Positions 30,560 to 31,169 of a stretch of DNA of 48,947 bases are shown here, piece after piece. The translations under genes were made by a program, and so were the position numbers. Within the stretch, counting starts at the first letter, position 1; every line of letters begins with the position of its first letter. This stretch comes from a virus. Under the pieces are notes generated by a model. That model ran no database searches, was not told the origin of the DNA, and saw nothing but the letters and a program-made list of their open reading frames with translations. Location of the stretch: positions 1 through 48,947 of IMG/VR virus record IMGVR_UViG_3300006790_000029, one strand, 5' to 3'.

Positions 30560-30675
30560 ATTTCATACCCTGCAACAGACCATCCACCATCACATGCTAC
30601 AAAAATCATTATGCCAAATACAAATGTTAAGAACATTATTATTTTTATGTAATCATGTATATCGTCTGAACTCAT
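30556..30675 (-). CDS. membrane microprotein, 39 aa
   Basis: The start overlaps the pilin-like stop (ATGA) and the stop overlaps the next gene (ATGA). After an acidic N-terminus (MSSDDIHDYIK) comes one hydrophobic helix (IIMFLTFVFGIMIFVAC), then CDGGWSVAGYEI. The VAC-CDGG context faintly recalls a lipoprotein cleavage site, which with the coiled-coil membrane protein downstream would suggest a spanin pair; the acidic N-terminus argues against it. Role unknown. Confidence 0.55.
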   Translation of the reverse strand: MSSDDIHDYIKIIMFLTFVFGIMIFVACDGGWSVAGYEI

Positions 30676-31169
30676 GGCTTATAATACTTATAAAAATCTT
30701 CAACATTTTCTGTGTCTACTACTACAAAGATTGGACTAACGATATTATTACCTGTACCGCCCCCACCAATAATGGCGTATGCATATAAGCCATCCTGATA
30801 AGGACTTTTAATTGTGTCATTGTCAAACAAGTGTAGAAAACTTGTATCACTAAATACTGGAACAAACTCAGCATCTAATAACTCTTCTGCTTCAATTCTT
30901 CTATTGTTGTTATAGTCAGCAATATCACCTACATTAGAAGTTCTATGTGCTTGACTAGGAAATTTACCCATGCCATATAGTTCTACTTGTTGATTGTACC
31001 ACATAGTAGAAGCTTTTGTGATTTTTTCTAAATTTGCTTTAGTTTGTTTTGCTTTCGCTCCTTCACCAATACGACTAAACGCAGGTGCAGCAGTTGTAGC
31101 TAATGTAGCCATTATAGCCATTGTTACTGCAAACTCAGCTAGACTATTTCCTTTGTTATTAAATAACAT
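30672..31169 (-). CDS. type IV pilin/pseudopilin-like protein, 165 aa
   Basis: With the start at 31169 (AAGAAGATTTA before it), the protein opens MLFNNKG|NSLAEFAVTMAI: a 7-residue basic leader, Gly at the prepilin-peptidase site, and Glu at mature position 5, then ~20 hydrophobic residues (to AAPAF). This is the class III signal of type IV pilins and type II secretion pseudopilins. The rest (KANLEKITKAS; GMGKFPSQ; FVVVDTENVEDFYKYY) fits a pseudopilin-sized globular domain. It probably needs host prepilin peptidase. A pilin encoded in a phage late operon is unusual; role unknown. Confidence 0.65.
   Translation of the reverse strand: MLFNNKGNSLAEFAVTMAIMATLATTAAPAFSRIGEGAKAKQTKANLEKITKASTMWYNQQVELYGMGKFPSQAHRTSNVGDIADYNNNRRIEAEELLDAEFVPVFSDTSFLHLFDNDTIKSPYQDGLYAYAIIGGGGTGNNIVSPIFVVVDTENVEDFYKYYKP

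Follow-up and report, generated by a model that had tools for sequence, protein, structure and literature searches.

The small envelope lipoprotein Llp of phage T5 acts on FhuA and guards against superinfection and against the loss of progeny on receptors. Phage-encoded prepilins as such are already known, and single ones are annotated or readable in the genomes of cyanophages and of Pseudomonas and Vibrio phages. Here, we describe a pilin gene found in the window, the whole 48,947-nt stretch of DNA that was analyzed (positions 1 to 48,947 of IMG/VR virus record IMGVR_UViG_3300006790_000029). The prepilins of cyanophage ACG-2014f, Vibrio phage 033B (gene 0062) and Pseudomonas phages JBD68 and LESphi3 resemble the window pilin in being phage-encoded with class III signals; unlike it, they have classical GFTL[IV]E N-termini, and no coupling to a lysis cassette was seen for them, except possibly in 033B, where the gene lies near an amidase gene. 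The type IV pili of Pseudomonas are disabled by D3112 Gp05, DMS3 Aqs1 and Pf4 pVII, via PilB, PilC or PilJ (PMC11436027). These three proteins have the same outcome that we propose below, an inactivated receptor pilus, and are not described in that article as pilins. A phage pilin of the window kind was not found in the literature searched, and a comparison of the window pilin and of its homologue from a Marinimicrobia pilus locus (L415) with 50,697 cultured-phage records gave no match. In the same literature, the pilin family, its link to Marinimicrobia and its placement in a lysis cassette appear to be undescribed, as do phages with several neighboring prepilins, here found as operons in large phages.

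The pilin gene and its parts are as follows:

30672-31169, minus strand: type IV prepilin-like gene, 165 aa with a mature form of 158 aa, assigned from homologues, signal and model
31149-31169, minus strand: class III leader MLFNNKG, with predicted cleavage after G7, assigned from the sequence and its invariance in homologues
31062-31148, minus strand: mature N-terminal hydrophobic helix (alpha1-N), mature residues 1-28
30882-30917, minus strand: EF-hand-like loop D-Y-N-N-N-R-R-I-E-A-E-E, residues 85-96, recognized by its sequence pattern

The reading frame from 31169 to 30672 is open, starts with ATG, and its translation begins MLFNNKGNSLAEFAVTMAIMATLATTAAPAFSRIG. In this 165-aa product, the leader MLFNNKG is followed by NSLAEFAVTMAIMATLATTAAPAF, and cleavage is predicted between G7 and N8, giving a mature pilin that starts with N1 S2 L3 A4 E5 F6. 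The original prediction, a class III signal with Glu at mature position 5, was thus borne out. A longer reading of 185 aa, with its start at 31229, is also available, and the shorter one was preferred because the leaders of the relatives are short (MKNNRG, MRNNSG) and the ATG at 31169 is closely preceded by AGAAG. When 74 phage and cellular homologues were aligned, Gly -1 and Glu 5 (E12 of the preprotein) were unvarying; homologues lacking the G-x4-E signal, which had been named in advance as evidence against a pilin, were not found among them. A class III-like signal, defined as [polar]G-x4-E plus a hydrophobic stretch, was detected in 25 of the 1416 ORFs of 26 pilin-bearing phage genomes, the window included, and all 25 belonged to the pilin gene cluster; with shuffled N-termini, 0.25 ORFs were expected. 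Moreover, the pilin showed a dN/dS of about 0.12 in a simple Nei-Gojobori count over 1083 pairs, indicating purifying selection.

Structure prediction, which had been suggested as a check, returned a pilin fold. With the 74-row alignment, AlphaFold2 gave a mean pLDDT of 89.8 and a model with a single helix at residues 5-65 and a C-terminal sheet, whose strands (129-134, 147-152 and 160-163) fall in well-predicted parts; with just 18 close homologues, the pLDDT was 40 and the model uninformative. In this prediction, a hydrophobic N-helix appears to run into a long alpha1, on which an antiparallel C-terminal sheet is packed, as in type IV pilins and pseudopilins. VIA-align 2 ranked pilins and pseudopilins first, with middling Z scores of 4.7-5.9. 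The top matches were the XcpGHIJK pseudopilus (Z 5.9), a Shewanella type IV pilin (5.4) and an ETEC type IVb pilin (5.2), followed by the pseudopilins XcpV/W, EpsI/J and GspI. Foldseek alone found no significant match to the model in the PDB (best E 2.5) or among viral models. Like PilA, MshA and XcpT/GspG, the phage pilin has a class III signal, E5, a long alpha1 and a C-terminal beta sheet; unlike them, it scores below the Pfam and NCBIfam cut-offs, has Asn at +1, no cysteines and an EF-hand-like loop, and has no adjoining pilus genes.

The scores with curated family models, 15 bits for Pfam N_methyl (cut-off 21.2) and a sub-threshold E of 0.004 for NCBIfam PilA_Myxo, would fit an unrelated membrane protein whose N-terminus resembles a prepilin by chance. 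The L415 homologue, which lies in a genuine pilus locus, was likewise missed by Pfam, and an alignment profile of the pilin family matched PilA at E 0.009. Chance resemblance is contradicted by the pilin fold, the excess of class III-like signals over shuffled N-termini and the whole-length homology to cellular pilus-locus pilins described below, and we regard it as barely credible. Identification of the product as a type IV pilin-like (class III) protein is well supported.

A first genome scan with a tight alignment of small-phage pilins gave no matches, and a wider alignment was needed to find cellular homologues. Bacterial and archaeal genomes scanned with the latter yielded 22 cellular loci, mostly from Candidatus Neomarinimicrobiota (Marinimicrobia, SAR406), single-cell genomes included. 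At L415, the genes come in the order prepilin peptidase (Peptidase_A24, E 5e-15), T2SSE ATPase with MshEN, sigma-54 activator, T2SSF, the family pilin and more prepilins, so that a homologue was found within a pilus or type II secretion locus, a mark of the pilin superfamily. The expected link to a prepilin peptidase also held, since the closest cellular relatives adjoin their own. The first pilin of the Marinimicrobia pilus loci (L415, L416 and L417) is homologous to the phage pilin over its whole length, has a near-identical N-terminus, G[NQ]SLAEFAVTTAMMATLATTAAP, and falls in the same tree family. The Marinimicrobia pilins differ in having 197-243 aa when mature and in being encoded on the chromosome together with peptidase, ATPase and T2SSF, whereas the small-phage pilin has 158 aa and stands alone by lysis genes. 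The MED-G177 MAG pilus locus (L416, 10001-17625) has more than 12 consecutive prepilin genes after T2SSF. On a single-cell contig, AG-470-O07_NODE_60 (L428, 1-4818), the same pilin is present twice in opposite orientations, probably because of an amplification chimera.

In the pilin tree, the small-phage pilins grouped in a single clade (100/100) with a long stem, while large-phage and cellular pilins were intermingled, with long branches that leave the exact joins uncertain. By pairwise BLAST, the best identity of small-phage pilins to cellular homologues was about 39-41%, and the pilin of phage contig L408 was 81% identical to the L415 pilin, which comes from a Marinimicrobia single cell. 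A minority of the 245 Marinimicrobia genomes gave all the strong matches within this phylum, and four matching genomes lay outside it. In an alphaproteobacterial MAG, SZUA-1021 (L433), a partial pilin groups with those of large phages, and relatives from the same taxonomic order lack the gene; this is likely a mis-binned phage contig. The best reading of these data is that the phage pilin is a captured host pilin, related to pilins of Marinimicrobia pilus or type II secretion-like loci. The pilin is also the one feature that points, indirectly, to Marinimicrobia as the likely host of the small phages: only two phages carry a tRNA gene (Tyr), and the phage lysis gene c2 (see below) was absent from the 245 Marinimicrobia genomes except for one weak 23% match. 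Marinimicrobia are abundant in the sea, and to our knowledge they are uncultured and no phages of theirs have been isolated. A pilin family shared between these bacteria and more than 150 uncultured phage contigs thus provides a testable host assignment.

Comparison by region showed that the mean identity between small-phage and cellular pilins is 71% over mature residues 1-28, 40% over 29-53 and 22% over 76-115. The mature length was fixed at 158 aa in the small-phage representatives, against 197-243 aa in the cellular homologues. A conserved N-helix with a diverged middle and a shortened chain fits a subunit that enters the pilus machinery yet shows another surface. Of the 17 small-phage representatives, 16 preserve the EF-hand-like loop pattern, and judged from this pattern, the loop may bind calcium.

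The original prediction had also placed the gene next to lysis and fiber genes. In the window the neighbors are lysis genes, and in podovirus-like relatives tail or fiber-type genes lie upstream of the pilin, in agreement with that placement. The genes concerned are as follows:

30556-30675, minus strand: putative lipoprotein of 39 aa (MSSDDIHDYIKIIMFLTFVFGIMIFVACDGGWSVAGYEI), whose start overlaps the pilin stop (ATGA)
30236-30559, minus strand: inner-spanin/Rz-like protein (weak assignment) with one transmembrane segment and a coiled coil, from sequence features
29879-30094, minus strand: small holin-like membrane protein, with a weak holin match (E 0.094)
29397-29939, minus strand: endolysin (GH108), with domain matches to Glyco_hydro_108 and PG_binding_3
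46605-46922, minus strand: holin-like lysis-cassette gene c2, known from the cassette of relatives
46334-46618, minus strand: second transmembrane/coiled-coil lysis-cassette gene, known from the cassette of relatives

In the window, the order is therefore pilin, lipoprotein, transmembrane/coiled-coil protein, holin-like protein and GH108 endolysin. The pilin of most relatives is flanked by c2 and the second transmembrane/coiled-coil gene (46334-46922, minus strand), but in the window both are some 15 kb away from it. These two cassette genes are likewise far from the pilin in G003. The order in relatives is pilin, lipoprotein, transmembrane/coiled-coil protein, holin-like c2 and M15 endolysin, the last being up to 47% identical to L-alanyl-D-glutamate peptidase endolysins of cultured phages. 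The lipoprotein of other phages has 88-91 aa and was detectable in about half of them. Directly upstream of the window pilin and overlapping it, a 191-aa ORF (31159-31734, minus strand) is similar to the N-terminal portion of c15, a primase-like protein of about 600 aa in related phages, and is probably a fragment or paralogue of it. The lysis region ends with a gene (28319-29428, minus strand) for a metallophosphoesterase-like protein with an N-terminal zinc ribbon of the IS1/IS1595 type. A 73-kb contig, G013 (L164-L167), has two lysis modules and may be a chimera or two phages joined in assembly.

The tail and fiber-type genes upstream in podovirus-like relatives could suggest a virion component, or a tail-associated adhesin, matured via the prepilin pathway. 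We consider this very improbable, given that no route is known for a membrane-inserted class III protein into a tailed virion and that no link to one tail type is conserved. The place of the pilin gene at the front of the lysis cassette and its ATGA overlap with the lipoprotein would rather agree with a helper that remains in the inner membrane and modulates lysis or envelope disruption together with the lipoprotein and the transmembrane/coiled-coil partner, its pilin ancestry being incidental. In line with this, all 77 testable loci had a transmembrane/coiled-coil gene no more than 900 nt downstream of the pilin, and 56 of 66 loci of relatives had an M15 endolysin no more than 3 kb away. This reading is nevertheless improbable: many similar lysis cassettes cleanly lack the pilin, the family members of large phages accompany other prepilins and not this cassette, and purifying selection is strong along the pilin fold.

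The distribution of the gene bears on this point. Relatives with 77-98% identity were present in at least 86 IMG/VR contigs. Between podovirus-like and siphovirus-like phages, the pilins were 78-98% identical, whereas their capsid genes had about 26% identity or no detectable similarity, and phages sharing the pilin had as few as 3-15 gene clusters in common with the window. The pilin is, therefore, an accessory gene common to unrelated phages, as would be expected of a superinfection-exclusion protein that acts on type IV pili. The cassette gene c2 was detected in at least 597 IMG/VR stretches. Among 70 scanned c2 loci, the pilin was nearby in 29 and lacking in 29 others that had at least 1.5 kb of upstream sequence, although 7 of the latter were window-like phages in which c2 is simply far from the pilin. 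Comparison of L201 with G001, and of L216 with G016, showed the same flanking genes meeting with or without the pilin at the same slot. The pilin gene is a facultative accessory insert in a fixed slot heading a common marine-phage lysis cassette. It lacks the regular cassette membership expected of holins, spanins and endolysins: with many comparable cassettes cleanly missing it, the pilin is unlikely to have a core function in lysis.

The conservation pattern and the apparently late, lysis-linked position led us to favor interference with, or remodeling of, the host pilus. Specifically, we see an even chance that, late in infection, the captured pilin is matured by the host peptidase, is incorporated into host pili and alters or poisons them, so that they no longer serve as receptors; more broadly, phages of the Marinimicrobia group probably alter or block host pili. 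The phage pilin would be made late, being translated together with the tail and lysis genes, and would be inserted in the inner membrane. There, it could be trimmed by the prepilin peptidase of the host, an enzyme with substrates of its own that have a near-identical N-terminus. The mature protein may then join the host pilus machinery, and the filament would be changed, capped or stalled; entry into the machinery with alteration of the filament is suggested by the conserved assembly helix and the diverged, shortened exposed domain. With the pilus lost as a receptor, rival phages would be excluded, and released progeny might be spared trapping on pili or debris. T5 Llp, a lipoprotein that acts on FhuA, is comparable in function only. 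Against pilus poisoning, the exclusion proteins known to work through the pilus target PilB or PilC, as motor or platform proteins, and are not themselves pilins; the sub-cut-off curated models, the lack of a significant Foldseek match and, for the host assignment, the near-complete absence of c2 from Marinimicrobia genomes also count.

Members of the family were also found in larger genomes. A divergent query retrieved 163 relatives, including homologues 37-40% identical in large contigs, and one of these large-contig homologues used as query retrieved 86 relatives, nearly all in contigs new to the search. Altogether, pilin relatives occur in more than 150 marine phage contigs. In the large contigs, the GNSLAEF pilin usually heads an operon with 1-3 further canonical prepilins (GFTLIELIMV...), and N_methyl was above cut-off in 29 of the 30 large multi-prepilin contigs. 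Six of these contigs had a capsid gene of T4 gp23 type, and none of the 30 had a T2SSE/PilB-type ATPase over cut-off. The T4-type late promoter TATAAATA was found upstream of 2 of 30 large-phage pilin operons, giving no support for its use.

The sets of 2-4 prepilins in large phages, whose gene order recalls the beginning of the host operon, would also be compatible with a working replacement subunit that maintains the host pilus or type II secretion during infection, in the style of auxiliary host-derived genes, for attachment, buoyancy or nutrient capture. In agreement, the pilin gene of cyanophage ACG-2014f lies near the host-derived psbD and talC. Such maintenance is, however, unlikely, since the small phages have one shortened pilin in an apparently late lysis operon, which leaves little time for a benefit to the host. 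Within the favored reading of an altered host pilus, multi-prepilin sets argue that the subunits are assembled and are not merely toxic. We tentatively raise the possibility, about which we remain rather doubtful, that Marinimicrobia phages re-coat or rebuild the type IV pili of the host with their own pilins (2-4 subunits in large T4-like phages and one shortened subunit in small ones) by means of the host peptidase and motor, so that infected cells would display phage-specified pili. The spread of the pilin family suggests pilus hijacking by captured pilins, and not by inhibitors alone, as a common strategy of ocean phages. The large marine phage contigs with operons of 2-4 prepilins (L336-L414) reach 132 kb, and among the neighbors of these operons are genes for putative secreted proteins whose signal peptide ends in SQ.
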